NCBI RefSeq assembly: GCF_902769175.1
Contig: NZ_CACXNW010000007.1
Span: 1-64,000 of the forward strand
From: an uncultured Methanobrevibacter sp.
GTDB taxonomy: Archaea > Methanobacteriota > Methanobacteria > Methanobacteriales > Methanobacteriaceae
Direction of reading: 5' to 3'
DNA: 64,000 nt
Position numbers and translations under genes: made by a program
Notes under the pieces: generated by a model
Seen by the model: only the letters and a program-made list of their open reading frames with translations
What the model was told of the DNA's origin: nothing
Databases searched by the model: none
In this document: positions 12,459-50,641 of the stretch, in pieces
Layout of the letters: each line of letters begins with the position of its first letter
Numbering within the stretch: the first letter of the stretch is position 1

Positions 12459-12524
12459 AAACAAAAATTTAAAAATCAAAAAATATAAAATTAAATATAG
12501 AAATAATTGAAAAGAGGTGATATT

Positions 12525-12899: not shown

Positions 12900-12978
12900 A
12901 AAATTTTATTTTTTCTTTTTCTTTATTTTTTTTAATACATTTTTTTATTTTTACTACTTTAAATGAATATTTTAAAAT

Positions 12979-13040
12979 AACCTACACTTTTTTACAACTT
13001 TAAATGATTAACCTACTCTTTTTTACAACTTTAAAAGATT
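12979..13040. repeat. Tandem repeat, two 31-bp units
   Basis: Copies 12979-13009 and 13010-13040 have the pattern AACCTAC(A/T)CTTTTTTACAAC with two mismatches over the unit. The rest of the 437-bp spacer (12900-13336) is T-rich. It includes a likely T-run terminator at 12905-12935 and further diverged copies of the unit to about 13090; I see no gene. Confidence 0.8.
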
Positions 13041-13336
13041 ATTTTAAATAAAATACTTTTTTATAGTTACCACTTAAGATGAATATTTAAAATAAAGTCT
13101 TCATTTTTATTTTAATTTTTATTCTAAAACTAATTAAATCGATTTTTTCTTTTTTCTTTTTTAAAAAATATTTAATCTCTTTTTTATGTCCTTTTTTTAA
13201 AATAAATTCTAAACAAATTAAAACAATCTTTCCTTTAAACTAAAAAACATTAAACTTTAAATTATATGAAAAATAAAAATCTAATAAGATATATAAAATG
13301 TTAATTGATTAATTTTAAAGTTTTAGGTGTGATTGA

Positions 13337-13870: not shown

Positions 13871-14129
13871 AACAAATCTAATTTATTAGGATTTGAATAA
13901 ATCTTAAAATTAATAAACAAATCAAATCAATTAGAATTTAATAATTCTAATTATTCTATTTTTTTTAATATAATTCCAAATATCCTGTTTTTTAAATTGA
14001 TAGACACAAGTATTTTTTTAAATTTCATATTTATTTTGAAAATATGTTTTTTTAAAAAATAGTTTTAATAATGTCGAACTAAATAATGAGAAATAAAAAA
14101 AAGAAAAAAATAATGAAAAGATATTAAGT

Positions 14130-15221
14130 TTATGTAATGATCTTTTCAAATCCACCGTTTTCGAGTGCCATTTTAATTTCACGTGCAACTCTTCTTCCCA
14201 TACTCATACCTTCACCGTATTTGAGGTAACTGTAGGAAGAACCTTCCATGAAGGTGTTTGTACCACCATCAGTTCTTGCACTTGTTTCAAATACAACAAC
14301 TTCAAGGTTATCGTTAACAAGAGTTTGGATACAGAATGGACCGTTTAAACCAGGTTTTACTAATTCTGCAGCACTTTTAACTAATTTGTCACCGATTTCA
14401 AATGCTTGTGGGAGCAATGATTCTCTCATTACAACTGGGTGGTTACCAGTTACAACATAAGATGGGCTAATATCAATGGATAATTGGTCTTTAGCAGGCA
14501 TTCTTACAAATCCATCAATACTGGATTCGTATCTGCTGTCCATACCCATAAGTTCCACTTCATCATTTAATGCTGAGTAGAAATAGTGGATACAGTAGTT
14601 ACAACCGGATACATACTCTTCAATGTGAGCTTGTTCCACATCTGCATCTTCAATCCAGCCACGTTCTTTCATTGCTTCGATTTTTTCATCAAATTCTTCA
14701 GTAGATGAAGCTACGAAGTAACCTCTTCCACCTCTTGCTCCAGGGAACTTAACCATTACAGCACGGTCAATTTGTGAAGGGTCATCGTATTTCATTGGGA
14801 TTCTGATTTTACCGTTGACAAGCAATTGTCTTTCCAAGTCTCTTTCAGCTTCCCATCTTAAGATGTCTCTGTTACCGAACATAGGAACATTGAACTTGTC
14901 TTCAACATTGTCCAAACCTGCATATGCAACAAAGGATCCATGAGGAATAACGATTGCATTCATGTCTCTTAATTTTTGTTGAACATCTTCGTTTACAATG
15001 TCTTCAAATTTATCGACAATGATATATTCATCTGCTACATCAAAACGTTGATAAGGGACTTCTCTTCCTTTTGCACATACGATAGCAGTTCTAAATCCTT
15101 CTTGTTTAGCACCGTTAAGAATATGTAAAGAAGTGTGACTACCTAAAGTTGCGATAGTTATATTGTCTTTATCATATCCTTCTAAAATCTCCAATATTTT
15201 TTCTTTACTAACTTTACCCAT
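14130..15221 (-). CDS. purP: 5-formaminoimidazole-4-carboxamide ribonucleotide synthetase PurP
   Basis: 363 residues. PurP is the archaeal ATP-grasp enzyme that uses formate and ATP to formylate AICAR to FAICAR in purine synthesis, replacing the folate-dependent PurH step. Recognisable family segments are [20 protein letters not shown] at the N-terminus, [16 protein letters not shown] in the ATP-binding part, [16 protein letters not shown], and [19 protein letters not shown] near the metal site. The AGGAGATTAAAA ribosome site precedes the ATG. Its spacer to the phosphodiesterase gene is 393 bp and divergent. Confidence 0.95.
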
Positions 15222-32363: not shown

Positions 32364-32421
32364 TTTAATATATTAATAAATTAAATATATTAACAGTTAA
32401 CTAAATTAATAGGTGATTTTT

Positions 32422-33039
32422 ATGGTTGGGTTCTCTGTTGAATTAGCAATTGTTGATTTTTTTGTTCCCATCTTATTTTTATGCTCTTTCTTAATCTTGA
32501 AAAAAAATTTGAAATCTAAAATGGAAAAAAAGCTCTACACCCTTTTTGTTATAGGAATGTCAATGTCTTTAATCATGGGATTCATAATCCCAACATATAA
32601 ATTAATAGTAGGATTAGGATTTTTAAAATTCACCCCACCAGGACATTTAATAGTCATGACAGGAATTGGTCTTTTAACTGCAGGAAGCTCTCTTTTTATT
32701 AATGTTTTTAAAGAAGAAGACTTAAGCAAATGGTGCGGTACAGGATTAATGATTCCAGTTGCTTATCTGAATATGCTCTGGATAATATTAGGAGTGATTG
32801 GAGAGGCACTTCTTTATATTTCCTTAATTAAGATAGCAAAAGAAAATAACTTAAAGAAACCAATAATCTTTCTAGCCATTTCATTCTGTTTTGTAATACT
32901 TATGGGAATGTGTGGATCCATAGAGAATGTGAATTCTGCATTAACTCATTGGATATTGGAAATAGTAAATATTTGTACACAATTTTTCTTGCTTTTAGCA
33001 GTGATGAATTTATTCCCAAAAAAAGAGAAAGCTTGTTGA
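32422..33039 (+). CDS. Hypothetical polytopic membrane protein
   Basis: 205 residues from ATG 32422, which has AGGTGATTTTT ahead of it; an upstream in-frame GTG at 32413 is inside that site. Six to seven hydrophobic helices alternate with short Lys-rich loops, and the chain ends in a KKEKAC tail. No transporter or enzyme signature is seen and I do not recognise the family. It marks the border between the conserved region and the accessory stretch. Confidence 0.65.
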   Translation: MVGFSVELAIVDFFVPILFLCSFLILKKNLKSKMEKKLYTLFVIGMSMSLIMGFIIPTYKLIVGLGFLKFTPPGHLIVMTGIGLLTAGSSLFINVFKEEDLSKWCGTGLMIPVAYLNMLWIILGVIGEALLYISLIKIAKENNLKKPIIFLAISFCFVILMGMCGSIENVNSALTHWILEIVNICTQFFLLLAVMNLFPKKEKAC

Positions 33040-33194
33040 TTTCATCTCTAACAAGCATCTAACATCATTGATATAATCCAGTTGATTTTCAGACTTTTTT
33101 TAAGCTCGAACTATGCTGGAATATCAGAATTATATAAGCCATGACAGATGTTTCGATTAGATAATCTCCCATATAAACCCAACCACTATTTTTT

Positions 33195-33257
33195 ATTATA
33201 TGATTAGATTAAACCTAAAATAAAAATTATATGATTGGATTAAACCTAAAATAAAAA
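33195..33257. repeat. Tandem repeat, two 31-bp units
   Basis: Units at 33195-33225 and 33226-33256 have ATTATATGATT(A/G)GATTAAAC and CTAAAATAAAA and differ at one base. They lie in a 730-bp gene-free stretch (33040-33770) that also holds the decayed transposon remnant and another duplication. Confidence 0.9.
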
Positions 33258-33304
33258 TATTTCTTTATTTTTTTAAGAAATTATTAAATAATTTTGCCCG
33301 TATA

Positions 33305-33463
33305 CTAACTCTCTTGCTTCACAGGTAGTTTACCCTTTCCTCCACGAGTAACCCTCGAAACAGGCAGCCTATCTAATGCCGGGTTTCTCCTAATCATCGA
33401 CAGCTAAAGCTTCCCTCATAGAAGGACCATAAACATCAGTCATAAAATATGATGCGACAATAT
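33305..33463 (-). pseudogene. Decayed C-terminus of a TnpB-like (IS605 OrfB) gene, possible omega-RNA remnant
   Basis: Read on the minus strand, this unusually GC-richer patch encodes, with two in-frame stops and one frameshift, YGPSMREALAVDD, then EKPGI, then TRGGKGKLPVKQES and a stop. A C-terminal KQE motif just before the stop is common in TnpB proteins of IS200/IS605 elements. In active elements the 3' end of tnpB and the right end also encode the guide (omega) RNA. Only the tail remains here, with no catalytic residues. Identification is by pattern memory and needs an alignment; another decayed gene is possible. Confidence 0.4.
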
Positions 33464-33518
33464 AATCTTTACTTAAGATTGTATATATAATTTTGTAATA
33501 AAAAAAACTATTTTTAAA

Positions 33519-33690
33519 AAATGTGGAAACCTACGCCACATACACAGTTATAAAACCCCTTCCTCAAAATCAAGCATTTTAAGAAGAAAACTTTATATGT
33601 AAAAACAGCAAAAATGTGGAAACCTACCCCCTATAACAGTGTTAAAAAAGCCTTACACAAAACTTAGCAAAAAGAAGAAGCAGTTAGCAT
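33519..33690. repeat. Imperfect direct duplication with shared ATGTGGAAACCTAC
   Basis: Two copies of about 75-90 bp begin near 33519 and 33612. The first 17 bases (AAAATGTGGAAACCTAC) are identical. The rest aligns at about 75% with small gaps. Each could start a tiny ORF beginning MWKPTP, but both stop within 20 codons. Confidence 0.7.
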
Positions 33691-33722
33691 TTAAATTAGA
33701 AAAATAAGAAAAAATTTTAAGG

Positions 33723-33763
33723 GTTTAATCAAGTTCTTTAAACAGAAGTTTTGTTAAACAAAA
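33723..33763. repeat. Dispersed repeat, copy 1
   Basis: The consensus is GTTTAATCAAGTTCTTTAAA followed by CAGAAGTTTTGCTAAACAAA; this copy has one change (GTTAAAC). It is internally palindromic (GTTTAA ... TTAAAC; GTTT ... AAAC). It sits just behind the 3' end of the minus-strand gene 33771-34004. Confidence 0.9.
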
Positions 33764-33770
33764 ATAGCTT

Positions 33771-34004
33771 TTATAATTTAGATTCGTCAATAGGAATAGG
33801 ATTATCCCGAGTACCGAAAAAGTCAGGCAACCTATTTCTAGCTATACACCATGCTTTCCATTCATAATATTTTTTAGGGTCTTCTTGCCATAACTTTTTA
33901 ATATGGGCTTTTTTACCATCATTATCTAGTTCTTCCATTTTTAGTACTTCTGAAGTATTTTCAAATCTACCATATCCTTCTGGACGATCAAAAGTGTACT
34001 CCAT
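33771..34004 (-). CDS. Small orphan protein flanked by dispersed repeats
   Basis: 77 residues, soluble, rich in Trp, Lys and Asp (KKLWQEDPKKYYEWKAWC), with no signal peptide. I know no family. TTAGGTGATAAA precedes the ATG, so translation is likely. It is enclosed on both sides by the same 36-41 bp repeat in direct orientation (33723 and 34050), which makes it look like a small cassette. The function cannot be stated. Confidence 0.6.
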   Translation of the reverse strand: MEYTFDRPEGYGRFENTSEVLKMEELDNDGKKAHIKKLWQEDPKKYYEWKAWCIARNRLPDFFGTRDNPIPIDESKL

Positions 34005-34049
34005 TTTATCACCTAATTAGTATTATATTCTTTGGCATTAATAAATTTT

Positions 34050-34086
34050 GTTTAATCAAGTTCTTTAAACAGAAGTTTTGCTAAAC
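34050..34086. repeat. Dispersed repeat, copy 2
   Basis: Identical to the consensus of copy 1 from GTTTAATCAAG through GCTAAAC, then diverging. It lies between the 77-residue gene and the solute-binding protein gene. Confidence 0.9.
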
Positions 34087-34245
34087 TTTATCAAACTTTT
34101 AAAATTAGATAAGTATTGAATTTATTTCAGAAATTTTATTAATAAAAGATTATAAATTATAATTATGTATAATATTAATGTTTTAGATTAATTAATTTTT
34201 AATTAAAGAGTTAATTATCTAATATAATTAATTGGGGCGAGAGTA

Positions 34246-35067
34246 ATGAAAAAATTAACAATATCAATATCAATTATTTTAATGCTCTTAATAATTGTAT
34301 GTGTTGGTTTCGGATTTTTTGATTTCTTAGGTAATCCTGAGACTTTTGATAACAATCCAGATAGTGCATTTGTCATTGGATTCAATAGTGAATTTCCTCC
34401 ATTTGGTTATGTGTCTGACAATGCCACTTATACTGGTTTTGATATTGAATTAGCTCAAGAGGTTGCTAAAAGGAATAATTGGACATTCAAAGCACAGCCA
34501 CTTATAGATTGGAACACTAAAAAAGTTTCTTTGGATAGTAAGGAAATTGACTGTATTTGGAGTGAATTCACTATCAATGGAAGAGAGAATGATTACCTTT
34601 GGACTAAGCCTTACTTTAACAATACCAAGTATGTTGTTGTTAACAAGGATTCAAATATCACAACTCTGGATGATTTGAATGGCACAGTTTTAGAAGTTCA
34701 AAAAGGAAGTTCAATCTTAAATACAATTGCAAAAAATGACACTCTAAACAAAACTTTTAAGCAAATAAATCAAGTGGATGGATACAACACCGCATTTAAG
34801 GATATGGTATCTGGAAATTGTGATGTTATAATACTTGATTGCTGTTTAGGAAGATATATGGTTAAGGAGAAATATACCAATACAAGAATCCTAAATGAAA
34901 CAGTTAACACTGAAGAATATGGGGTAGCATTTGCAAAAGATAATCATGAATTAAAAGATCAAGTTCAAAGAACTTTGGATGAAATGTATAGGGATGGAAC
35001 TGTAGAGAGAATTGCTAAAAAATACAGTGATTATGGTGTTCCTGAAGGTTTAATTTATCCAGAATAG
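34246..35067 (+). CDS. Amino-acid ABC transporter solute-binding protein (family 3)
   Basis: 273 residues. A signal peptide/anchor (about 5-26, LTISISIILMLLIIVCVGF) precedes a periplasmic-binding fold of family 3. The fold shows IGFNSEFPPFGYVSDNATYTGFDIELAQEVA, LDDLNGTVLEVQKGSS and YGVAFAKDNHELKDQV. Such proteins bind polar amino acids outside the cell and pass them to an ABC permease. No permease or ATPase is adjacent, so it is an orphan here, or possibly a sensor. The lead sequence GGGGCGAGAGTA is an unusual ribosome site. Repeat copies 2 and 3 flank the gene. Confidence 0.88.
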   Translation: MKKLTISISIILMLLIIVCVGFGFFDFLGNPETFDNNPDSAFVIGFNSEFPPFGYVSDNATYTGFDIELAQEVAKRNNWTFKAQPLIDWNTKKVSLDSKEIDCIWSEFTINGRENDYLWTKPYFNNTKYVVVNKDSNITTLDDLNGTVLEVQKGSSILNTIAKNDTLNKTFKQINQVDGYNTAFKDMVSGNCDVIILDCCLGRYMVKEKYTNTRILNETVNTEEYGVAFAKDNHELKDQVQRTLDEMYRDGTVERIAKKYSDYGVPEGLIYPE

Positions 35068-35300
35068 GGAAATTTAATCTCTATTTTGCAACATAACGAT
35101 TTAATGGGCTTGATTATACTAATGTTAAATGATAATGTATTCGGTGACTACTGAAACATTTATTTCACTCTTTTTATTATTTTTTTTTTAAATATTTAAT
35201 CAAATTATCTAAAAGTTATTAATTGTTTTAATTTATTTTTGACATGCTTTATCGAATTTTGACTAAAATGTATCGTGTCACATTCTCCATTTTGCATTTT

Positions 35301-35341
35301 GTTTGATCAAGTTCTTTAAACAGAAGTTTTGCTAAACAAAA
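35301..35341. repeat. Dispersed repeat, copy 3
   Basis: Matches the consensus with one change (GTTTGATCAAG). It is in the same orientation as copies 1 and 2 and lies behind the solute-binding protein gene. A weak fourth copy may be at 36402-36435. Confidence 0.9.
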
Positions 35342-35368
35342 TAGATTTAAAAAAAAAGTAAAAAATTA

Positions 35369-35465
35369 GGGTCTGTTGAAAACCTTTTTAAAAATTTATT
35401 TTAAATCTTTTTAACAGTGAAATTTAAAAATTTTTATATAAATTTATAGGATTTCAACAAAGCCC
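35369..35465. mobile_element. 97-bp MITE-like element with inverted ends
   Basis: The left end GGGTCTGTTGAAAACC and the right end, read inverted, GGGCTTTGTTGAAATCC are near-matching terminal inverted repeats. They resemble the GGCTTTGTTGAA ends of IS5-type (IS903-like) elements. Direct flanks AAAATTA(G) on both sides look like a 7-8 bp target duplication. The interior is AT-rich with partial self-complementarity and no ORF, so it needs a transposase in trans. The rest of the 463-bp spacer 35068-35530 is AT-rich and noncoding. Confidence 0.75.
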
Positions 35466-35530
35466 AAAATTAGATAAGATTATCTAAATTTTCATTAACA
35501 ATTAAAATTCAGGAAAAGGGTTTATATAGG

Positions 35531-35914
35531 TTATCCTAAATTTGTATTGTTGTTGGGATCTTTATAACTAGGTATGTCCCCACCATCAATTATCCATCCG
35601 ATAGGTACATCTCCACCGGATTGTAATCTTTCATTAGGATTAGGAACAGAAATAGTCCTATTCCTAGAAGATTGTAACCTTTCATCAGGATTAGAAACAG
35701 AAATAGTCCTATTCCTAGAAGATTGTAACCTTTCATCAGGATTGCTTGTGAAGATGCCTGGTCTTTCAGAACTTACTATTGCTTTGTGAACATTATGATC
35801 TCCACTATCAATTTTTTCAACAATGGAATGAGAGTTCAAATCAGCTGAAAAAGCACAGCCAATACCGAATACCAAAATAAATAATGAAATTAAAATTATT
35901 GTGGTTCTTTTCAT
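35531..35914 (-). CDS. Small secreted protein with 17-residue tandem repeats
   Basis: 127 residues. A clear signal peptide (MKRTTIILISLFILVFGIG, cleavage near CAFSA-D) is followed by about 35 unique residues. Two identical 17-residue units (SNPDERLQSSRNRTISV) and a third diverged one (PNPNERLQSGGDVPIGW) come next, then a short Gly/Asp/Asn tail. The units are encoded by nearly identical 51-bp repeats, so they are recent. GGTGAAAGA precedes the ATG. It could be a secreted adhesin-like fragment or a multi-copy peptide precursor with cuts at the RNR sites; both are guesses. No homologue is recognised. Confidence 0.65.
   Translation of the reverse strand: MKRTTIILISLFILVFGIGCAFSADLNSHSIVEKIDSGDHNVHKAIVSSERPGIFTSNPDERLQSSRNRTISVSNPDERLQSSRNRTISVPNPNERLQSGGDVPIGWIIDGGDIPSYKDPNNNTNLG
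35593..35745. repeat. 51-bp coding tandem repeats
   Basis: Near-identical units at 35644-35694 and 35695-35745 are preceded by a diverged one at about 35593-35643. Each contains GATTGTAA(C/T)CTTTCATCAG on the plus strand and encodes the SNPDERLQ unit of the minus-strand secreted protein. Confidence 0.9.
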
Positions 35915-35996
35915 TCTTTCACCATTAAAATTTAAAAAAAGTTCTATAAAAAAAGATTTTAATAAAAGGTTAATGGAATTTTTTAAAAAATTAATA

Positions 35997-36233
35997 TTTA
36001 AAAGATATTATTTTTTAAAATTATTTTAAGAACAAATGTTTCTCAAGATGAAAATTAAAAATAATGAGATTGTAAAAAAGTTTCGGCTTAAAATCAGAAC
36101 ATTAATTTTTATTTTTAAAGAAATCTGACAAAATTAAAATAAGCCTATAAAATTTTTCACTCTCAAAATAATATTTTTAAAATATATGTGAATAATATTT
36201 TAAAGATATTATTTTTTAAAATTATTTTAAGAA
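35997..36233. repeat. Direct repeat, two 36-bp copies 200 bp apart
   Basis: Copies at about 35997-36032 and 36198-36233 share TTTAAAGATATTATTTTTTA and AAATTATTTTAAGAA. They lie in the 767-bp gene-free stretch 35915-36681. That stretch also holds two promoter-like sites and a faint fourth copy of the dispersed repeat, and otherwise no convincing gene. Confidence 0.8.
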
Positions 36234-36308
36234 AAATTATTTCATAAGTATTTCGATTAACCATTCTTGTTTTTTATAGGACTTTCCCATATTAAGTATT
36301 AAGAAAGA

Positions 36309-36347
36309 AATATATAAATGTTATTATATGCAAGTATTTACTTGCAT
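36309..36347 (+). promoter_or_regulatory. TATA box with a 20-nt palindrome at the expected transcription start
   Basis: GAAATATATAAAT at 36307-36319 is a good archaeal TATA element. A perfect palindrome, ATGCAAGTA-TT-TACTTGCAT at 36328-36347, follows where transcription should start. The only ORF behind it (36368-36511, 47 codons, no ribosome site) is doubtful, so the transcript may be noncoding or relic. Confidence 0.5.
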
Positions 36348-36578
36348 CTTTAAATAATAAATAGTGCATGGAATATTGGGTTAAATTGAAAATTAAACCA
36401 AGTTTGGTCAAATTCCTTAATAGAAATTTTGGGAAAATAAAAAGTTTAGGAATTTGGGATTGTATAAATTTATTTGAAAAACTTTTTTTATTAAAAATGC
36501 TTATTTTTTAAATTGAAGAGTAAAATCCACTTATATCTTATTTATAAACATTTAAAAACTTTATTTTTTAAAATAAAG

Positions 36579-36617
36579 ATGCAAATGAGTGCTTACATGC
36601 GAAAATCTTTATATATG
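36579..36617 (+). promoter_or_regulatory. Promoter of the secreted-protein gene at 36682
   Basis: A TATA element CTTTATATA at 36607-36615 would start transcription near 36640, leaving a 40-nt leader with AAGGATGATA before the ATG. Just upstream, ATGCAAATGAGTGCTTACAT at 36579 resembles a degenerate version of the palindrome at 36328. Confidence 0.5.
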
Positions 36618-36681
36618 TCTTTAATATAATAATTAAATGTGTTAAGAACACGATAAAAATTTTTAATAAAGGATGATAATA

Positions 36682-37077
36682 ATGAATAGAAATATATTAT
36701 TCACTTTTACTATAATGATCATATCCATTGTTGGGCTAGGTATAGCATCAGCTGCAGATAACGGCACTATTAATGATATTGAAATTAATGATATCGATAA
36801 TGTAGTTGTTGCTAATGAAACTATTGATTCAATTAATGGCATTGATGATGAAGTTGTTGCTAACGAAACTGCTGATTCAAAAGAAGACATTGTTAAATTA
36901 AACCATACTATTATCTATGATACACCAGATAAGGAAAATAAGAACGTTAATAAGCCAATAGGCATTGCTACATTAGAAAAGGCTAATACCCAAAGCAATT
37001 ATGAATTAATTGAACTTTACTTCGACCAACTTATAAAAAACATAATGAATTGGATATTGAACACATTGTTCCTATAA
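36682..37077 (+). CDS. Small secreted protein, frame overlaps the next ORF
   Basis: 131 residues from ATG 36682, preferred over 36673 because of ribosome-site spacing. A signal peptide (MNRNILFTFTIMIISIVGLG, cleavage near ASAAD) precedes an acidic, Asn/Ile-rich region with a repeated VVANET(I/A)DS motif at about 35-60. The last 20 residues overlap another frame that looks more like real coding sequence. The natural protein may therefore run on into the next ORF through a lost or gained base in the A6 run at 37035-37040. No family is recognised. Confidence 0.55.
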   Translation: MNRNILFTFTIMIISIVGLGIASAADNGTINDIEINDIDNVVVANETIDSINGIDDEVVANETADSKEDIVKLNHTIIYDTPDKENKNVNKPIGIATLEKANTQSNYELIELYFDQLIKNIMNWILNTLFL

Positions 37078-37430
37078 TTGATGAAATCGATAGCATGTAT
37101 GTTACTGGACATAGCTGCAAAGAAATTTCAGAATATGCGAACATGACCCCTAATCAAGTTCAATACATTGTAGACACTCATCTCATTGAACCTATTAACT
37201 GTGATGAATTATCATATTCCGTTTACACTTTATACGGAACTGGAAGTCTTAAGGAACTTGCTGATAAGATTGGTGTTTCCCAAGATGATGTCTATAATAA
37301 GGTGCTTCAAATCAAATCAGGATACTATGGAATAAATTATAAAAAATTATTCCACGCTCGTGATATGATTGCTTTAACTTCAGGTCATTCTGATCTAGTT
37401 ATTAACAATAAAGAATATTATCACAATTAA
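37050..37430 (+). CDS. HTH-like ORF without its own start, likely the rest of a frameshifted gene
   Basis: The open frame reaches from 37014, just after a stop, to 37430. The only start is TTG at 37050, with no ribosome site. The protein has two helix-turn-helix-like segments, GHSCKEISEYANMTPNQVQY and GSLKELADKIGVSQDDVYNK, suggesting DNA binding. Read back across the A6 run, it joins smoothly to the upstream ORF (IELYFDQLI then KKHNELDIEHIVP). Either one gene was frameshifted or a recombination event joined two genes. T-rich sequence after the stop may terminate the transcript. Confidence 0.5.
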   Translation: MDIEHIVPIIDEIDSMYVTGHSCKEISEYANMTPNQVQYIVDTHLIEPINCDELSYSVYTLYGTGSLKELADKIGVSQDDVYNKVLQIKSGYYGINYKKLFHARDMIALTSGHSDLVINNKEYYHN

Positions 37431-37604
37431 TTTTTCTTTTTCTTTTTCTTTTTTTTATTTGTTTCTAATTTTTATTAACTTTTTTTAATGCTTTTTTATT
37501 TAATTTCAATTCTTTATTTCGATATTTTTTTAAAATTATTTAATTCAATTAATAGAATCATTTTCATCTATTGGCAAAGCATAATTTTTCCACTTAATAA
37601 CAAA

Positions 37605-37640
37605 CATTTATATTGTACCATTTCAATAAAGTACTTGCAC
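37605..37640 (+). promoter_or_regulatory. TATA box and TACTTGCA motif before the 93-residue gene
   Basis: CATTTATATT at 37605-37614 is the TATA element. GTACTTGCAC at 37631-37640, near the expected start point, repeats half of the palindrome at 36328-36347 at the same distance from its TATA box. AGAAGGTGAT follows at 37651. Confidence 0.45.
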
Positions 37641-37684
37641 ATATAATGTGAGAAGGTGATAAAATAATAGAAGTAATTGAGAAA

Positions 37685-37966
37685 GTGACAAAAGAATTGG
37701 AAAATCTTGGCCTTACACTGGATACTGTTGAAAATGAGCATATCCTTGAAGCATGCATAGCTAAGGTTGCATTGGCGGATAATTTAAAAAAGGAAGGAAT
37801 CGATTTCGATGAACTCGAAAATAAACTTTATCCTGATTCAACATTCGTTAATCAAATGATAATGCATCTTGATGATGGAGGATCTGATAATGATTTGATT
37901 TCAAGATTCTTGATTAAGGCTCTTGATTATTCACCAGAATTGCAGGATTTGTTCGAATCTCCTTAA
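37685..37966 (+). CDS. Small acidic hypothetical protein with uncertain start
   Basis: 93 residues from GTG 37685, but the strong ribosome site AGAAGGTGAT (37651-37660) is 25 nt upstream. Between them the frame is open and reads ATA-ATA-GAA-GTA, so translation may start at an AUA codon at 37664 or 37667, giving about 99 residues. The protein is acidic and helical, with no signal peptide and no recognised family. A clear hairpin terminator follows. The tight promoter-gene-terminator unit argues that it is expressed. Confidence 0.6.
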   Translation: MTKELENLGLTLDTVENEHILEACIAKVALADNLKKEGIDFDELENKLYPDSTFVNQMIMHLDDGGSDNDLISRFLIKALDYSPELQDLFESP

Positions 37967-37968
37967 GA

Positions 37969-37997
37969 AGAATAGATAAAAATCTATTCTTTTTTTA
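37969..37997 (+). terminator. Hairpin plus T-run
   Basis: The stem AGAATAGAT/ATCTATTCT encloses a four-to-five-A loop and is followed by seven T residues. It lies directly after the stop of the 93-residue gene. The rest of the spacer 37998-38270 is AT-rich with no gene seen. Confidence 0.75.
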
Positions 37998-38270
37998 CTG
38001 ATGCAATGATGTTAAAAAAAAACTGGAACTTTAAAACTTATATTAAGTTCTTTTGATGAACTACTTAGTTTTTTATCCCCATTTTATTTAATTAAGCTTT
38101 ATGAGCCACTGCATTACTTTTTTATCATTATTTACTTAATAAAGCCCCATATAATTAATTGCTTTACTTATATCATCATTTATTTTTTATTAAACTCGTT
38201 AAGAAAGTTTTTACAAAATATAAAAGGCTCATAGAAATTATTATTCTTTTTTTTAAATCCAGATTTTCTG

Positions 38271-38367
38271 AAATAAATTTAATGATATTGAAAAAAAGCA
38301 CATTTTATATATGAAAAAAAATAAATTTAATGATATTGAAAAAAAGCACATTTTATATTATGAAAAA
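38271..38367. repeat. 48-bp tandem duplication around a start codon
   Basis: Units 38271-38318 and 38319-38367 share AAATAAATTTAATGATATTG and the following AAAAAAAGCACATTTTATAT. They differ by one inserted base near the end. 48 bp is 16 codons, so the duplication stays in frame; the ATG at 38311 lies at the junction. Confidence 0.92.
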
Positions 38368-38625
38368 AATATATCATATAATAAAATTTATGGATTCAAC
38401 CTATTTAAGACCACATATGAATATATGTTAAAGAAATACCCAAGGAATGGAATTTTGAAGTTTAATAATATGACAATGCAAAAATTTTTTCAAAGGAAGA
38501 AATGGATTTATATGGAATACATGAAGAGAAAATTCAATATGTTTGAGAGAGAAAGCAAAAAGGATGAAATAATATATGATTTCGGGAATTACTTATTCAC
38601 ATTGCAATGGGAAGTTTTATTATGA
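38311..38625 (+). CDS. Small basic hypothetical protein upstream of glycogen synthase
   Basis: 104 residues, rich in Lys, Asn, Tyr and Phe, with no signal peptide or known motif. Its ATG arises at the junction of a 48-bp tandem duplication and lacks a ribosome site. Its stop overlaps the start of the glycogen synthase gene (ATGA), the arrangement of translationally coupled genes. It could be a real partner protein or the remnant of a longer gene. Function unknown. Confidence 0.5.
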   Translation: MKKNKFNDIEKKHILYYEKNISYNKIYGFNLFKTTYEYMLKKYPRNGILKFNNMTMQKFFQRKKWIYMEYMKRKFNMFERESKKDEIIYDFGNYLFTLQWEVLL

Positions 38626-39983
38626 AAATAATCATGGCATCTACAGAATTTGAAGGATTGTTGAAAACTGGAGGGCTAGGTGATGCAGTTACAGGAATTT
38701 GTCACAGCTTATCAAAGTATAATGACATTGAAGTTTATGCAGTAATACCTAATTACAGGAATTTAGATAGCAGTGACTTTGAAAAAATTGATGAAATAAG
38801 CTTAGATGATTCTAGATTCCCAAAAGAACAAACCAGTGCAAATCTTTTATATAAAAAAATAAATAATACAAATGTTTATTTGATTGACAATGAATATTAC
38901 TTTAATAGAGAAAACATTTACGGTTATGAGGAGGATTTGCTTAGATGGGCATTTTTCTGCCGTTTTATTTATGAGTTAATAGTTCAAAAAGACATGAATC
39001 CTGATATTGTCCACACTAATGATTACCATGAAGGTATGGTTTCTTATATCTTTAAAAATTCCAATTTGAATCCTCTTCCAAAATTTGTCCTTACAATCCA
39101 TAATGCATTATTCCAAGGGTATTATGAATTTCAAAGCGATGAAGAGAAATCATTGCTTGAATATTATATAAATTCCCCATGGCCTCAAGACAGCATTAAT
39201 CTATTAAAAGAATCAGTTTTAAAATCTGATGAGATATTGACAGTCAGCCCAGATTATGCAGAAGGCATGAAAGAAGAGAAATGGGGAAATGGCTTAGAGG
39301 ATTTGTATTTGGAAAAAGGGATCAAGGGATTTATAAATGGTTTGGACACCAGTTTTCATGACAGAGAAACTGATAATTTTGATGATTACTTGAATGTTAA
39401 AAAGGAATATAAAGCAAGAATACAAGAAAAATTTGATTTGAAGATTGATGAAAACATCCCTTTAATAACATATATCTGCAGATTAGGTATTCAAAAGGGT
39501 TCGGATATTGTTTATGAATCTTTAAATAACTTCATAGATAAAACCCAATTTATATTGTTAGGCACTGGCGTTGAAGAGTTTGAAGAGAAGTTTTCTAATT
39601 TCAAGCATGAAAATTTACATGCCATCATTGACTTTGATTCTGAACTTGCTAGAGAGTTGTACATTGCATCAGATATCTTTTTAATGCCTTCCTATTTTGA
39701 ACCTTGCGGAATAAGTCAGTTAATAGCCCTACATTATTCTTCTATTCCAATTGTAACAAATATTGGAGGATTAAAGGATACTGTGGAAGATGGAGTCAAT
39801 GGTTTTAAGATGAATGAATATTCTTCTGATGAATTAACAGATAAAATATTAATTGCAACCAGCATCTATCTAAATGATAAAAAAAGATGGAGGAATTTAA
39901 TGAAAAATGCATTCGAATCTGATAACCATTGGGACCACAGAATAAAAAATTATGTTAGATTATATAGGAAAATGGTGAAATAA
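38622..39983 (+). CDS. Glycogen/starch synthase (GT5)
   Basis: 453 residues from ATG 38622, where family homology begins (MKIIMASTEFEGLLKTGGLGD with the K-T-G-G-L substrate motif at 15-19). An upstream in-frame start lies inside the previous ORF. GT5 markers are PDIVHTNDYHEG, LTIHNALFQG, VSPDYAEGM, ICRLGIQKG and YFEPCGISQL with the acid/base glutamate. It transfers glucose from ADP- or UDP-glucose to alpha-1,4-glucan. A GH13 enzyme follows, so the two form a storage-glucan module. It is slightly shorter than bacterial GlgA. Confidence 0.9.
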   Translation: MKIIMASTEFEGLLKTGGLGDAVTGICHSLSKYNDIEVYAVIPNYRNLDSSDFEKIDEISLDDSRFPKEQTSANLLYKKINNTNVYLIDNEYYFNRENIYGYEEDLLRWAFFCRFIYELIVQKDMNPDIVHTNDYHEGMVSYIFKNSNLNPLPKFVLTIHNALFQGYYEFQSDEEKSLLEYYINSPWPQDSINLLKESVLKSDEILTVSPDYAEGMKEEKWGNGLEDLYLEKGIKGFINGLDTSFHDRETDNFDDYLNVKKEYKARIQEKFDLKIDENIPLITYICRLGIQKGSDIVYESLNNFIDKTQFILLGTGVEEFEEKFSNFKHENLHAIIDFDSELARELYIASDIFLMPSYFEPCGISQLIALHYSSIPIVTNIGGLKDTVEDGVNGFKMNEYSSDELTDKILIATSIYLNDKKRWRNLMKNAFESDNHWDHRIKNYVRLYRKMVK

Positions 39984-40081
39984 TACAAGACAAAAATGAA
40001 TTTATATTAAGGACATCTTAATATTGTCTACAAATTACACAAAATAGATAAAGGAAGGAATGCTAAAAGTGAGGGCTATTG

Positions 40082-41833
40082 ATGTTTGAAGTAATTTATG
40101 ATTCACAAGAATTGGAGTATAAAAGACCTTTTGGAGCAATTCCCATAAATGCAGATGTTGAATTTAAAATAAAAGCCAATCATAAATGCAAAGCAAAAAT
40201 GATCTTTAATTCAAGCTTAGGCAAGGAAGAATACGATTTAGAATGTCTAAGGCAAGATAGAGATTATTTTATTTACTATTTAAAATTAAACACTTCCAAG
40301 TATATTGGACCGATTTTCTATTATTTCAAATTTCAAGTTGAAGATAAAATATATTATTATTCCAATAATGAGGAATTGCAGGGAGGCATTGGAAAGCTTA
40401 GCTCTATAAAACCAAAAGGCCATTATCACTTTTATGTTTATGATTTAAAATATAAGGTTCCAGAATGGTTTAAAACTGGAATAACTTATCATATATTTGT
40501 AGATAGGTTTAACAATGATTCTTCAACCTTAGAAACAGTGGATAAAGAATTATGGAAAGTTTACGGAGGCAATCTAAAAGGAATAATTAACAAATTAGAT
40601 TACTTAAAGGATTTAGGAGTTTCCATAATCTATCTAAGCCCTATTTTTGAATCTGAAAGCCACCACAAATACGATGTTGAAGACTATAAAAAAATTACAA
40701 GTGATTTTGGAGATTTAGAAACTTTTAAGGAGTTAGTTTCAGAAATGAAAAAAAGAGACATGCATTTGATATTGGATGGAGTATTTAATCATTCCGGCAG
40801 CAACAGCAAATATTTCAATAAATACTCCAAATATGAAACTATTGGCGCATATCAATCTAAAGAATCCCCTTATTTTGATTGGTATACCTTTAACAGTTTC
40901 CCTGATGATTATCAATGCTGGAATGGCATTGACACTCTACCTGAACATAAGCAAGACAATGAGGATTTTCTAGACTATCTATTGTTTAATCAAGATTCAA
41001 TAGTGAATTATTGGATGAACTTAGGAGTGGAAGGATGGAGATTAGATGCTGCAGACTTGTTGACTGATGATTTCCTAAGAAAAGTATATGCAGTTGCAAA
41101 AAAGAACAATCCTAATTCAGTGATTATTGGAGAGTTATGGAATGACGGAACCAATTTCAGATATCATACAGAGAATGAAATTCATGAATATATGTGTGGC
41201 TGTGAACTTGAATCAGTCACCAATTACCCATTGCATGGTTTAATTTTACAATATTCAAATGGAGAATATGATTCAGCCAGATTCATTAAAGGATTTTATT
41301 CTCTTTTGGAAAATTATCCCATTGAATATTTTTATTCATTGCTAAACTTTTTAGGAACTCATGACATAGAAAGGGTATATCATCTTTTAGAAGGAAATGT
41401 TGATTATTTAAAATTAGCTATCCTGCTTTCTTTAAGCTTGCCAGGAGTTCCATTGATATACTATGGTGATGAAGCAGGATTGGATGGAGCTGGCGATCCA
41501 GATAATAGGCGCCCATTCCCATGGACCAACATAAATTCTGAAATCTATAATCATTATCGTTCAATGTGCCATATGAGAAACAATAATGATGCATTTAAAA
41601 GGGGATCCATTTATTTTGTAGAAAATTCTGATTTTTTAATTTTCAAAAGATCTTATGAAAATGAAAATATTTATGTTATTTTAAATAATTCCACTGAAAA
41701 AGAGCTGAATTTAAGCATTTTATCAAATGATGACATTAAGTTGAAAAATTTGGAAAATAATGAGGTATATGATATAAAAGATAAGTTATCCTTTGATGGC
41801 TTTAGCTATAAAATACTCTTGGAACAAATTTAA
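40082..41833 (+). CDS. GH13 alpha-amylase/neopullulanase-like glycosidase
   Basis: 583 residues, intracellular (no signal peptide). An N-terminal beta-sandwich (about 1-110) precedes the GH13 barrel. Conserved regions are LILDGVFNHSG, GWRLDAAD with the nucleophile Asp near 322, IIGELWND with the acid Glu near 351, and LGTHDIERV with the stabiliser Asp near 428. A C-terminal beta domain follows. This organisation matches neopullulanase/cyclomaltodextrinase enzymes that hydrolyse short alpha-glucans. With the GT5 gene 98 bp upstream it suggests glycogen turnover. The start is the ATG after TTG at 40079. Confidence 0.9.
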   Translation: MFEVIYDSQELEYKRPFGAIPINADVEFKIKANHKCKAKMIFNSSLGKEEYDLECLRQDRDYFIYYLKLNTSKYIGPIFYYFKFQVEDKIYYYSNNEELQGGIGKLSSIKPKGHYHFYVYDLKYKVPEWFKTGITYHIFVDRFNNDSSTLETVDKELWKVYGGNLKGIINKLDYLKDLGVSIIYLSPIFESESHHKYDVEDYKKITSDFGDLETFKELVSEMKKRDMHLILDGVFNHSGSNSKYFNKYSKYETIGAYQSKESPYFDWYTFNSFPDDYQCWNGIDTLPEHKQDNEDFLDYLLFNQDSIVNYWMNLGVEGWRLDAADLLTDDFLRKVYAVAKKNNPNSVIIGELWNDGTNFRYHTENEIHEYMCGCELESVTNYPLHGLILQYSNGEYDSARFIKGFYSLLENYPIEYFYSLLNFLGTHDIERVYHLLEGNVDYLKLAILLSLSLPGVPLIYYGDEAGLDGAGDPDNRRPFPWTNINSEIYNHYRSMCHMRNNNDAFKRGSIYFVENSDFLIFKRSYENENIYVILNNSTEKELNLSILSNDDIKLKNLENNEVYDIKDKLSFDGFSYKILLEQI

Positions 41834-41886
41834 AAAAAGGTTTAAGTTTAATAGATTTCATTAGATTAAAGTTTCAAAAGCATATT

Positions 41887-42020
41887 ATTAGATTTTAAAA
41901 AAAAATCATAAACTCTAATTTTACAACAAATAGTTTTCATAAATGCAAACAAATATTAGATTTCTAAAAAAAACATCAAATCTAATTTTACAAGCAATAG
42001 TTTTAATAAATGCAAACAAT
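41887..42020. repeat. Tandem repeat, two 66-68 bp units
   Basis: Units 41887-41954 and 41955-42020 share CTAATTTTACAA-AATAGTTT and ATAAATGCAAACAA. They fill most of the spacer between the GH13 gene and the next gene. Confidence 0.85.
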
Positions 42021-45062: not shown

Positions 45063-46709
45063 ATGTTAGAAATGAAAAATTTATCAAAAAAATTAATAGT
45101 CATATTTTTATGTGGGCTGCTAGTGTGTAGCATACAGGCATGTGCAGCATGTACTGCTGTATACGTAGGGCAGGATGTTAGCGCAGACGGTTCAATAATT
45201 ATCGCCAGATCAAACGACCATCAAGACGTTTGGGGAAATCATATTACAGTGATTCCAAGGGTAGAGAACCAAGAGGGACGCTTTATGCCTGTAAGTGGGG
45301 ATGGAAAGGTAAAGATGGAACTTCCATCAACCACATATAAATACACAGCAACACCCTATATGAATAGTACAACTGCATACAATGGAGCATCTCATGATGC
45401 AGCTGCCTGCACTAATGAATATGGAGTTGCCATGACCATGTCCGTTACAGCATTTCCAAATGATGCTGCATTGAAAGCAGATCCATTAGTTGAAGAAGGA
45501 ATTACTGAAGATACAGCAGTGGACCTTGTGGTTTGTCAGAGTAAAACAGCAAGAGAAGCTGTAGAAAAGCTTTGTGGAATCATTGACAAGTACGGGAGCA
45601 GTGAAACCAATATTGCCCTCATCGCTGACCAAAATGAAACATGGTATGTAGAGATGTATACTGGACACCAGTATTCTGCAGTGAAATTGCCATCTGACAA
45701 GGCATCTGCATTTGGTAATGAATTTAACTTAGAATACCTGTCTGACTATGAAGACAACATCACATCAAAAAATTTAACCAAACTTGCAGAGGAAAAGGGT
45801 TTTGCTGTACATGGCAAAAATAATGAAATCAATTTATATGAAACATATTCTGGAATTGATATGGCTTTCGATTACTCACATTTGAGGACTTGAATAGGAC
45901 ACCATCTTTTATCCCCTTCAAACTACAGTGCAGACTACAGTTTAAACACTATGTATCCTCTCTGCTTTACACCAGACAAGAAAGTTTCAATGGAAGATGT
46001 CTGTCAAATTTACCGAAACAGATATGAAGGAACAGAATATTCTCCTGATGAAACTGGCAGAGGTGAAATTAGGGTTATTGGAACTGAGACTACACTAAGT
46101 GCCCATGTCTTACAGGTGTACCCAGACCTTCCAGCAGAAATGTCATGCGTCAGTTGGGTCAGTTCTGGTCCGGCAGTTTGTGGAGTCTATGTGCCAGTCT
46201 CCAACGATTGCCTAAATGTCAGTGAGGCTTATGGAGCCAATCAACCTGCAAATGAGAAAGAAACCTTTGATACAGATCACTACCCATATTATGTATTTAA
46301 GGAACTTTGCGATCGTGGTATAGGACCTGAAAACTACAAACCTTATGGTAAGCCTGTACAAGCCTACTGGAAAGAAGCGGAAGCAAATATGTTTACTGGA
46401 ATGAGTGAAGTCATTAAAAAGGCTGAAAAAATAGAGGATAAGGAGACTAGGGCAAAATATATCACAGCATACTGTAATGAGAAGCAGAGCCAAGCATTCG
46501 CAGACGGTCAAGAAATATTGAATGATGTGACTTGGATACAAAACAAAAACAGTAAAACACTTAAAGTCAAGCTCAATCCTGAAACCCATGAACTAACTGG
46601 TGAGAAGATAGAGATTCCTCCAATGAACATAAGCCTTAATGCAACAAAATATAAACATGTTCCAGAGGTGCCAAATGGAGGATTTGAATTTAAACTTCCA
46701 TTTACCTAG
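45063..46709 (+). pseudogene. C69 family dipeptidase, copy 1, broken by an internal TGA
   Basis: A secreted Ntn-hydrolase of the U34/C69 dipeptidase family. A hydrophobic leader (11-29) ends directly before C30 in AACTAVYVGQDVSADGS, and that cysteine becomes the N-terminal nucleophile after processing. One reading frame runs 548 codons but is cut by TGA at 45891-45893. The neighbouring paralogue has TGG (Trp) there and ATG where this copy has ATA, so two G-to-A changes explain the lesion. Everything after the stop is otherwise open and conserved. Truncation, readthrough or a sequencing error are the options. The gene would encode a gut peptide-degrading enzyme. Confidence 0.85.
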
Positions 46710-46795
46710 TTATTGCATATTACTGCAATTGATGCAAATGGAATCTCTAAACTAATTCATTCAGTAAGGAAACTGCAGAGAAATTTCATATATGC

Positions 46796-46830
46796 AAAGG
46801 AATTTATTTTCCTTGTTTTTTCTTTTTTTA
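46796..46830 (+). terminator. Hairpin plus T-run behind C69 copy 1
   Basis: The stem AAGGAA/TTCCTT is followed by G and a long T-run with one C. The paralogous gene ends with an equivalent hairpin, so it was duplicated together with the gene. Confidence 0.6.
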
Positions 46831-47358
46831 AAAAGTTTGAACTATTCGATTTTTCTTTTTTTTAAGAGATTTAAACTACTTTTTTCTTTTTTAAGGAGAT
46901 TTGAACTAATTTTTTCTTTATTAAGACTTTATGATTATTATTTACTAATTGTTTCAATTGAATTTTAATTCTAATTTTACTTGTTTAAAGTAGTTTATTG
47001 AAAAAATAATTAATTAAAATGGTTTAAATTAGTTCATTAATTGAAGTTTTGTAAAACATAACCCTATTTAAAAAAAGAAAAAAATCTAAAGATAAACAAA
47101 AAATAAACCAACAGATGAAAAAAAAAAGAAAAAATTTCTAAATTTAAACAAAAAACAAACCAACAGATGAAAAAAAGAAAAAAATCACAATTATGAAAAT
47201 AAACATGGAAATCAGTATAACAATGTTAAAAAGTATGATTGAACAAGTTTATAAAATAATTGCAAAAAAGTATATAAACTACAAAAAAAGAAAAAATAAT
47301 AGGGATGACATTATTTATTAAATTTTGTGTAATATTTAAACATCAAATGAATGTTTAG
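46831..47358. repeat. Repeat-filled spacer between the C69 paralogues
   Basis: Three diverged units with TTTTTCTTTTTT-AAG-GATTTGAACTA lie at about 46830-46925. Two units with AAACCAACAGATGAAAAAAA lie at about 47085-47175. A weak relative of the dispersed 35-40 bp repeat is at about 47020-47060. No gene is seen. Confidence 0.6.
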
Positions 47359-49013
47359 ATGAATTATATGATAGAGTTAAAATATTTATCCAAAAAAGGG
47401 ATAGTCATAATTTTATGTGTGCTGTTATTGTGTGGAACACAAGCTAGCGCAGCATGTACTGCAATATATGTAGGCTCAGATGTCAGTGCTGACGGTTCAA
47501 CAATCATGGCAAGGTCAAACGACTTTCCAGAAGTTTATGGGAATCACATCACAGTTACTCCAAGAGTAGAAAATCAACCGGGACGATTTATGCCAGTAAG
47601 TTGGGATGGAAAGGTAAGACAGAGATTCCGGCAACAACTTACAAATACACTTCAACACCATTTATGAATAGTACAAGAGCATATAATGGATTTAATCAGG
47701 ATTCAACTGCCTGCACTAATGAATATGGAGTAGCAATGACTATGTCCGTTACAGCATTCGCAAACAATGCTTCATTGGAAGCAGACCCATTAGTGCCAGA
47801 GGGCCTTACAGAATTTGCTGCAGTGGATCTTGTAGTTTGTCAGAGTAAAACAGCAAGAGAAGCTGTAGAAAAGCTTTGCGGAATCATAGATAAATACGGA
47901 AGCAGCGAGTCCAATATTGCAATCATCTCTGACCAAAATGAAACATGGTATGTGGAGATGTATACTGGACACCAGTATGCTGCAGTGAAAATGCCTAAAG
48001 ACAAAGTAGCAGTCTTTGGTAATGAATTTACCTTAGAATACTTGTCTGACTACGAAGACAACATCACATCAAAAAATTTAACTAAACTTGCAGAAGAAAA
48101 GGGTTTTGCTGTACATGGCAAAAATAATGAGATTAATTTGTTTGATACATATTCTGGAAAGGAAATGACTTTCGATTATTCTCATAGGAGGACTTGGATG
48201 GGACACCAACTTCTATCCCCTTCAAACTACAGTGCAGACTACAATCTAAACGCTATGTATCATCTCTGCTTTACACCAGACAAGAATGTTTCAATAGAAG
48301 ATGTCTGTCAGATTATCCGTAATAGATTTGAAGGAACAGAATTTTCCCCTGAAGAAAATGGCAGAATTGATGTAAGAGTTATTGGAACAGATACAGCACT
48401 AAGTGTACATGCATTACAGGTTTTCCCAGACCTTCCAGCAGAAATGTCATGTGTCAGTTGGGTCAGTACTGGTCCAGCACTTTATGGAGTGTTTGTACCT
48501 GTCTCTAACGATTGCCTAAATGTCAGTGAAGCTTATGGAGCAAATCAAGCTGCAAAGGACAAAGAAACCTTTGATACAGATCACTACCCATATTATGTCT
48601 TTAAGGAACTTAACACCCGTTGTTTGGAACCAGAGGATTACCAAGCTTATGGTAAGCCTATTAGAGCTTACTGGAAAGAAGCAGAGCATAATATGTTCGA
48701 AGGAATGAGTAAAGTCAATAAAAAAGCAGCAACAATGAATGATAAGGATGCAAGGGCAAAATATATCACTGCATACTGTAATGAGAAGCAGACCCAAGCA
48801 TTCAATGATGGGAAAGTACTGCTGGATGATGTGATTTGGACACAAAACAAAAACAGTAAAACACTTAAATTAAAGCTCAATCCCGAAACCCATGAACTGA
48901 CTGGTGAAAAGATAGAGATTCCACCTATTAACATAACCCTTAATGCAACAAAATATAAGAACATTCCAGAAGCGCCAGATGAGGGATTTCCATTTAAACT
49001 CCCTTTTACCTAG
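47359..49013 (+). pseudogene. C69 family dipeptidase, copy 2, broken by a 1-base deletion
   Basis: Paralogue of the preceding gene, with the same leader and nucleophile C33 in AACTAIYVGSDVSADGS. The first frame runs to 47667, and the rest of the enzyme continues in another frame from about 47601 to 49013. Comparison with copy 1 shows the join: GTA then AG-ACA where GTA-AAG-ACA is expected, so one A is missing near 47617. After the shift the enzyme is intact to its end. As assembled, neither C69 copy yields a full-length protein. Confidence 0.85.
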
Positions 49014-49099
49014 TCTTCTAAGTGTATGGCATTGAGAAAATAAGGGGAATATACTATAGTCTCTATTAGACAATATAAATTAAAATAAAACAATTTATG

Positions 49100-49135
49100 C
49101 AAGGAAATCATTATTCCTTGTTTTTTTCTTTTTTT
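49100..49135 (+). terminator. Hairpin plus T-run behind C69 copy 2
   Basis: The stem CAAGGAA/TTCCTTG around a six-base loop is followed by T7-C-TT-C-like T-runs. The 328-bp spacer 49014-49341 then holds diverged copies of a unit with AAAACTATTT-TAAAATAAAA, related to the repeat at 50642, and no gene. Confidence 0.7.
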
Positions 49136-49341
49136 TTAACTTAAAAAAACTATTTTTAAAAATAAAAGGATCATAAAAAAATTATTAAAAAAACCTATTT
49201 CTTAAAATAAAAGATTAATTGGAGGTATGTCACGATTATGACCATCACTCACTTTTTTTCTTAACTTATTTTCCTTTAAATTTATATACAAAGAAGTACA
49301 ATTCCTTATTATAGAAATAAATAATTTAGGTTGTGTATTTT

Positions 49342-49680
49342 ATGGTTTTAAGAGATGATACAATAAATCAACAATTATTAATCCTTCTTGACTTGAGAGA
49401 TTTGATTCCGAAAGACCATCCGCATTATTTTATAAAAAACGTTGTCGACACAATGGATTTCACAGAAGTCCATAAAAAATTCGAAGGAAAGCCTGGAGAA
49501 TCTGCATATTCTCGTGCAATGCTGCTTAGAGTAACATTAATGGGTGCGTTCGATGGAGTATTATCCAGCAGAGACCTGGAAGAGCAAGTAAATAGAAATA
49601 TCGCTTACATGTACCTTGCAGGCATGCTAAAACCAGATTTCAGAACATTTGCAAGATTCAAAGAACAAAAAAGAGATTAA
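49342..49680 (+). pseudogene. Truncated transposase (N-terminal DUF772-type domain, IS1182/IS5-like)
   Basis: 112 residues from ATG 49342. The sequence matches the N-terminal domain of IS1182-type transposases: LIPKDHPHYFIKNVVDTMDF, AYSRAMLLRVTLMGAFDGVL, SSRDLEEQVNRNIAYMYLAG and PDFRTFARFKEQ. It stops exactly where the catalytic DDE domain should begin. Full transposases are near 450-550 residues, so this is a remnant, unless the DNA-binding half has been kept for another use. A long-armed hairpin lies 43 bp downstream. Confidence 0.8.
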
Positions 49681-49722
49681 TAAAAGATTTTTTTGGATTT
49701 TGGAAAAATTAAAAAAAAAAAT

Positions 49723-49764
49723 GGGATCATGAATTTGTTTTTTTTTTTTCAAATTTGTGATCCC
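49723..49764. terminator. 15-bp-arm hairpin with T-run loop
   Basis: Arms GGGATCATGAATTTG and CAAATTTGTGATCCC are complementary except at two positions and enclose 12 T residues. It sits between the transposase fragment and the convergent coiled-coil gene. It may terminate both, or be the folded end of the lost insertion sequence. Confidence 0.65.
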
Positions 49765-49802
49765 TCTCAAAAGTAAAAAAAAGAAAAATATCTGAAAATC
49801 AA

Positions 49803-50249
49803 TTATTTAGCATATTTTTGTTCAAATTCTTCTTTTTCTGTAGCGATTTTACCTTCTAAAGTAGTTACTACAGTAGCTGTTTTATCTTTAAATTCAGCAA
49901 TACTTTCCTCGTAATTAATAGTTTCAATAGTGTCATCAAGGTCTTCTTGAAGGTTTGCAATTAATTCATTTTTTGCTACTTGTATTCTTAATTGTGTTCT
50001 TAAGAGAATTTCTTCTAAAATGTTTTCTGCTTTAAATAAAATAAAGTCAGCATCTTCACCATTGTTTTCAATTGCTAATTCAACTTCATTAGATAAAACA
50101 GCAACAGCTAAATCTGCATCATCTAAAGCATCTTCGATTCTTGCATCAGCTAAAGCAAGATGTGATTCTAATTTTTTTTGATTTCTAGCTTTTTTGTTTT
50201 CTAATACTTTTTCTTCGAATTTTATTTTAGCGTTAGCCTTTTTTTTCAT
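49803..50249 (-). CDS. Coiled-coil protein, 5' end displaced by homopolymer frameshifts
   Basis: The intact frame gives 148 residues, nearly all helix: charged coiled coil rich in Glu, Lys, Ala and Leu, with an acidic middle. No family is recognised. On the minus strand a better start (ATG at 50314, after ATGGTGAAAAT) begins MSFEEKKEEFNIKK. It then needs one frame change in the run at 50272-50279 (8 T) and another at 50239-50246 (8 T) to join this frame through EEKILAANEKK. Removing one base from each run restores a 169-residue protein. The gene is probably about 510 bp long (49803-50314). Confidence 0.65.
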   Translation of the reverse strand: MKKKANAKIKFEEKVLENKKARNQKKLESHLALADARIEDALDDADLAVAVLSNEVELAIENNGEDADFILFKAENILEEILLRTQLRIQVAKNELIANLQEDLDDTIETINYEESIAEFKDKTATVVTTLEGKIATEKEEFEQKYAK

Positions 50250-50641
50250 TAGCAGCTAATATTTTTTCTTCTTTTTTTTATATTAAATTCTTCTTTCTTT
50301 TCTTCAAAACTCATATTTTCACCATATTATTTAATTATTATTAATAAAAGTAATTTATTAACACATTATTATATGCTTCTCATCATTAATTAATATTTTC
50401 ATTATAAAATTCATTTTTTAAATATTGTTTACTATTATTAATTAAAATAATTTCAAATTATCTTAATAAAAAAAAATAAGTAGACATATGATAATAAACA
50501 TATGCCCTATAAGACTGGCAGAAAATCCTGATAAATCAGTTGATTTAAATATCTTTACCCTTCAAGTTGCAATGATCCAAAGTTGACAAAAATTGTAATA
50601 CAGATAATCCTTTCATGACATATTGTGTAATTAAAAAAAAA

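Follow-up and report, generated by a model that had tools for sequence, protein, structure and literature searches.

Peptidases of family C69, a family of Ntn hydrolases, are represented by the profiles PF03577 and NF033678 and include bacterial dipeptidases of solved structure (5IAU, 5IMH and 5IMG). Searches for literature on C69 in Methanobrevibacter found nothing. For the intestinal Methanobacteriota, raised pseudogene counts and the loss of formate-use genes (fdhABC), the latter in an intracellular lineage, have been reported, and the loss of formate-use genes is described for Methanovirga (PMC13135261; PMC11287868). In this study, we analysed the window, a stretch of 64,000 bases (bases 1-64000 of a contig of 65,885 bases) from an uncultured Methanobrevibacter sp. 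whose assembly of 3.12 Mb in 65 contigs is rated 88% complete. The window carries two C69 genes, each interrupted by one lesion, and we consider it probable that the pair has undergone real and recent pseudogenisation in the course of a genome-wide erosion that is accompanied by the expansion of an insertion sequence. The genome shares with the eroding intestinal and protist-dwelling Methanobrevibacteraceae portrayed in those reports a raised pseudogene count, and its formate transporter gene fdhC is broken; it differs from them in that its fdhA and fdhB are intact, in that it is large, and in the insertion-sequence expansion measured here.

The two C69 genes are arranged in tandem, with 83% identity between them at the DNA level (Table 1). 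Copy 1 reads from its ATG to its terminal stop with a sole internal stop codon, at codon 277, and copy 2 is in frame from either of two ATG codons (47359 or 47368) and then continues in a different frame to its end; since its two tblastn pieces join at 47610-47628, copy 2 has one frame break near position 47617. These reading frames, together with matches to the PF03577 profile (copy 1 at 224.6 bits, the parts of copy 2 at 179.3 and 25.4 bits), agree with the first-pass annotation of this DNA, which had described two neighbouring C69 paralogues with one lesion apiece, a TGG changed to TGA at 45891 in copy 1 and a break near 47617 in copy 2. The pieces of both copies score under the cut-off of 250 for NF033678. 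The site of the TGA is Trp in all 15 aligned relatives, all 15 read straight through the site of the frame break, and the intact orthologue in a related genome, G015, is without either lesion. Both copies also keep, as had been annotated, a hydrophobic leader and a Cys as first residue of the mature domain; this Cys is invariant in 15/15 relatives and presumably, from its role in the C69 family, is the nucleophile. The proposal that the two genes have matching terminators held in part, as the hairpin after copy 2 was flagged by the terminator scan whereas its counterpart after copy 1 is weaker and was not flagged. A tRNA scan and an Rfam scan of the window were both empty.

Table 1. Positions of the C69 gene pair and of adjoining features in the window.
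Feature	Position	Strand	Details
Putative C69 dipeptidase gene, copy 1	45063..46709	+	548 codons plus stop; one TGA at 45891-45893
Weak hairpin and T-run, possible terminator after copy 1	46795..46825	+	z -1.7; unflagged by terminator scan
Putative C69 dipeptidase gene, copy 2	47368..49013	+	alternative start 47359; one frame break within 47610-47628
Hairpin and T-run, possible terminator after copy 2	49099..49128	+	z -3.4; flagged (49099-49121)
Shortened insertion-sequence copy, both ends kept, with N-terminal part of DUF772 transposase (49333-49680)	49205..49790	+	

As a complete reading frame is missing in both copies, with one TGA in the first and one frame break in the second, we regard them as pseudogenes of the C69 family and not as functioning members. 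The profile match across both halves of both copies and the Cys of the mature domain place them with the C69 peptidases, and their leaders suggest that the interrupted genes once specified secreted enzymes, whose substrates, judging from the family, would be dipeptides. Interruption and the presence of a leader peptide distinguish the copies from the known family members; some relatives of the copies differ further in carrying C-terminal Ig-like domains or a terminal hydrophobic segment. The intact G015 gene matches the three solved bacterial dipeptidases with E values of 2e-44 to 3e-43; because the AlphaFold model of the G015 protein is poor (mean pLDDT 49), this kinship rests on sequence. 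Among the intact relatives, two (L016 and L023) have C-terminal Ig-like domains and one (L024) has a C-terminal hydrophobic segment, additions which suggest a form of the enzyme displayed on the cell surface. A search with PF03577 found no further C69 gene in the assembly, at its 88% completeness.

A 32-kb contig of G015 that is collinear with much of the window has a single intact C69 gene in the same place and between the same neighbours. A tree of 18 proteins places the two copies together as sisters (support 100/99), with the G015 protein next to them (92/89); the duplication therefore occurred in this lineage, and it postdates the split from G015. Synonymous divergence (dS) is 0.45 between the copies and 0.75 between each copy and the G015 gene, the latter being close to the median of 0.79 for 206 intact shared genes, and dN/dS is 0.28 between the copies and 0.21-0.22 to G015. 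These values indicate that the copies diverged while both were selected genes, under purifying selection, and that the lesions came late. Of the sites that are invariant among the other intact relatives, an average of 6.5 are changed in copy 1 and 4.4 in copy 2, compared with 0-7 in the 15 intact relatives. Neither copy has a second lesion, which, with assumed indel rates, limits the age of the lesions to less than about 0.018 substitutions per site; with half of the dS as the time since duplication, this bound corresponds to roughly the final tenth of that time. A stretch of about 9.6 kb at 32413-42000 of the window, missing from the G015 contig, carries genes for a solute-binding protein, a starch-synthase-type glycosyltransferase and an alpha-amylase.

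Beyond the window, 1.26 Mb of the source genome was compared with 1.21 Mb of G015, both being partial samples with this one relative as the yardstick, and 21 of 227 shared genes were found to be broken here versus 3 of 228 in G015 in the reverse comparison (Fisher p 1e-4). An excess of pseudogenes over a relative, which is a criterion for erosion of the type seen in protist endosymbionts, is thus present in these partial samples relative to one genome. The survey had flagged 24 of 230 genes, three of which were dropped as antisense-like ORFs judged by eye, and copy 2 is not counted separately because both copies match one G015 gene. This stricter survey supersedes an earlier and looser one (22/162 here and 8/172 in G015) that had counted stops in N-terminal extensions and artefacts of tandem duplicates. 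The suggestion in the first-pass annotation that selection had recently been relaxed is supported by dN/dS, the counts at invariant sites and the bound on lesion age, with the difference that the relaxation is genome-wide and not specific to the pair.

The broken genes mostly encode transporters, oxidoreductases, and surface or accessory proteins. Those for transport comprise a MATE transporter, a xanthine/uracil-type permease, a sodium symporter and the formate transporter (fdhC); the enzymes are two aldo/keto reductases, an FMN oxidoreductase, a LeuA-like enzyme, trpA, trpB, a xylose-isomerase-like protein, a radical SAM protein and a metallophosphatase; and the others are a histone paralogue, a beta-helix surface-type protein, DUF2149, SseB and ARPP-1 proteins, two proteins without a family, and C69. 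Among the 14 genomes with a match to fdhC the gene is broken only here, and the same is true of trpB among the 13 genomes with a match above cut-off. In one region (L082 of G000:C21, 11950-18056), fdhC, the gene of the DUF2149 protein and the neighbours of the latter, one of them heavily degraded, form a cluster of broken genes that adjoins the intact fdhA and fdhB. The identity class of a gene was by itself no predictor of breakage (7/104 genes at >=90% identity and 14/123 below it; p 0.26), a result that speaks against the reading preferred here.

Thirty core genes with functions in translation, replication, RNA and central metabolism are intact, 28 of them having an NCBIfam match and 22 a match above the curated cut-off, and as this panel was hand-picked from the list of intact genes after the list had been seen, its intactness is partly due to selection. 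For two of its members, the genes for Mtd and aIF2-beta, the only stop lies upstream of the family match, within an N-terminal extension. The chance that 21 breaks distributed at random by length would spare the panel (11,004 of 71,632 codons) is about 0.03, a value which applies to a panel chosen post hoc.

The second genome-wide feature is the insertion sequence, a shortened copy of which sits just downstream of C69 copy 2. Its left end was found at 19 further strong and 2 weak places in the genome and its right end at 17 strong and 2 weak places, amounting to about 20 copies of the element. In at least 23 of the 36 strong matches the end lies some 200 bases or less from the terminus of a contig (17 at the contig start and 6 at the far end), which indicates that the assembly is interrupted at the copies of this element, the behaviour of an accurate short-read assembly. 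The left end had no match in 13 of 18 further genomes of the genus and a single match in each of the remaining five, strong only in G013; metagenome bins may lose repeats of this sort, but the single-contig genome G003 is also among those without a match. Beyond the element, an ORF of 148 aa on the minus strand (49803-50315) looks frame-broken at poly-A tracts near its start (~50236-50310), and no match confirming that break was found in our own or the G015 samples.

Sequencing error, which the first-pass annotation had also offered, would mean that both C69 genes are intact in the organism and that the assembly carries many small errors, and we judge this to be improbable. Consistent with it are the completeness of only 88% for a genome of 3.1 Mb and the state of the strongly conserved trpA and trpB, which contain three frame breaks despite a dN/dS of only 0.04. 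The breaks lie in L129 (G000:C3:20001-40000, 12339-14331), two in trpA and one in trpB, in genes with 94-96% protein identity to G015 and beside other, intact genes of the trp region; they could be due to a bad assembly patch. In addition, mcrA, which is expected to be essential and is intact in the source genome, reads in G015 as two pieces with a TGA (G015:C36:14622-16179), through an assembly fault or in reality, and faults in core genes therefore do occur in such assemblies. Sequencing error is nevertheless made less likely by the mixture of lesions: the 21 broken genes contain about 16 nonsense and 10 frame changes, and several of the stops require more than one base change. This count omits a stop close to a start, two stops in an insert that aligns poorly, and another next to a frame break. 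Sequencing error is also made less likely by the higher median dN/dS of the broken genes (0.135, versus 0.078 for intact genes; p 0.012) and by the contigs ending in a repeat, a pattern typical of short-read assemblies, in which errors of this kind are rare. Moreover, none of the 26 other shared neighbours in the window is broken relative to the collinear G015 contig, as against both C69 copies, a contrast that exceeds chance, and a bad assembly patch around the C69 locus was rejected on this ground. This comparison, in which G015 itself shows one split gene, left out four antisense ORFs and covered the window outside 32.4-42.0 kb and 49.8-50.2 kb, which are without a G015 counterpart.

There is a slim chance that the losses are specific to C69, the enzyme being lost repeatedly in this methanogen family independently of genome-wide erosion. 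The distribution of C69 is patchy, with a PF03577 match in 16 of 138 genomes of the methanogen family, belonging to 2 of 17 genera, and in 4 of 19 genomes of the genus, in which a DNA search, confined to the genus, added C69 pieces in G017 and G018. Outside the source genome there are 22 copies, 20 of them assessable once those of G017 and G070, which are cut by contig ends, are excluded, and four of these 20 are broken at different places: that of G003 by an internal deletion, that of G018 by 5' truncation and a frame break, and those of G069 and G072 by frame breaks. This patchiness and the broken copies elsewhere speak for the preferred reading as well. The 16 open copies include two (G050c and G057b) that are free of lesions but run off the examined stretch. 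The remnant in G003, a finished single-contig genome of 2,937,203 bases, resembles the pair in being a dead member of the same family in the same genus that is followed, judged by eye, by a similar hairpin and T-run; it differs in having been killed by a large internal deletion and in that the neighbour genes of the window were not found beside it within the 120 kb inspected. Against a cause restricted to C69 stands the breakage of twenty unrelated shared genes in the source genome, although the two causes are compatible with each other.

It is very unlikely that the pair serves for on/off variation, or as a reserve in which an intact gene is regained when the copies recombine. The first-pass annotation had pointed out that recombination could rebuild an intact gene, and the geometry allows this, since the lesion of copy 2 maps upstream of that of copy 1 and a single crossover between them, where there is an identical run of 44 bases (45531-45574 in copy 1), would leave one uninterrupted gene. 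However, tests for past exchange gave no clear signal: of 2000 shuffles, 213 produced an identical run as long as the longest one (44 bases), and the run at fourfold sites had a p of 0.34; clear past gene conversion between the copies was rejected on these results. For windows of 30 codons, the lowest divergence was matched by 126 of 2000 shuffles and the highest by 59, an unevenness that is weak and is also explained by varying constraint. On/off variation, likewise put forward earlier, is not supported, and switching by a simple repeat was rejected, as a search for a hypermutable repeat at the lesions found tandem repeats only between the genes and none inside them, and neither lesion lies in a long homopolymer; similar lesions also occur in many other, single-copy genes of the genome. 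Recoding, in which read-through of the TGA (as selenocysteine or otherwise) and a programmed frameshift in copy 2 would allow both proteins to be made, is scarcely credible. The downstream parts of both copies are still conserved, as recoding would have it, but this is explained by the youth of the lesions; the 15 aligned relatives have Trp at the first site and no frame break at the second, and Methanobacteria are described in PMC13135261 as being without a selenocysteine pathway.

Real and recent pseudogenisation during genome-wide erosion thus remains the reading that we prefer. A single C69 gene was duplicated in tandem after the split from G015, and both copies were maintained as enzymes for most of their history; very recently, each would have been inactivated by one mutation when the organism no longer needed the function. 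The pair would now be decaying together with about a tenth of the other shared genes, in a genome through which copies of the insertion sequence have spread. Potentially, the loss is tolerated as the gut community or the host supplies peptides or amino acids, and weak selection in a small population may be driving the erosion.

Two broken dipeptidase genes alone are ordinary, and the eroding genome is of more interest. Possibly, although we think it rather unlikely, the source organism, as part of the Methanobrevibacter ruminantium clade, is only beginning to be restricted to a host, perhaps inside a protist, and in its genome a burst of the insertion sequence and fresh losses precede shrinkage. 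The fresh losses in such a genome would be those of secreted peptidases, formate uptake (fdhC), tryptophan synthase and several transporters. If that were the case, the twin C69 genes would serve to date the switch, both having been inactivated, independently of each other, within the final tenth of the history that they share. On a practical level, the annotated fragments in the assembly should not be taken as working small proteins. The C69 lesions, the excess of fresh lesions and the insertion-sequence burst would together indicate that, in a clade of gut methanogens, erosion is at an early stage, and the loss of formate uptake and of tryptophan synthesis would create a dependence of this organism on its neighbours.
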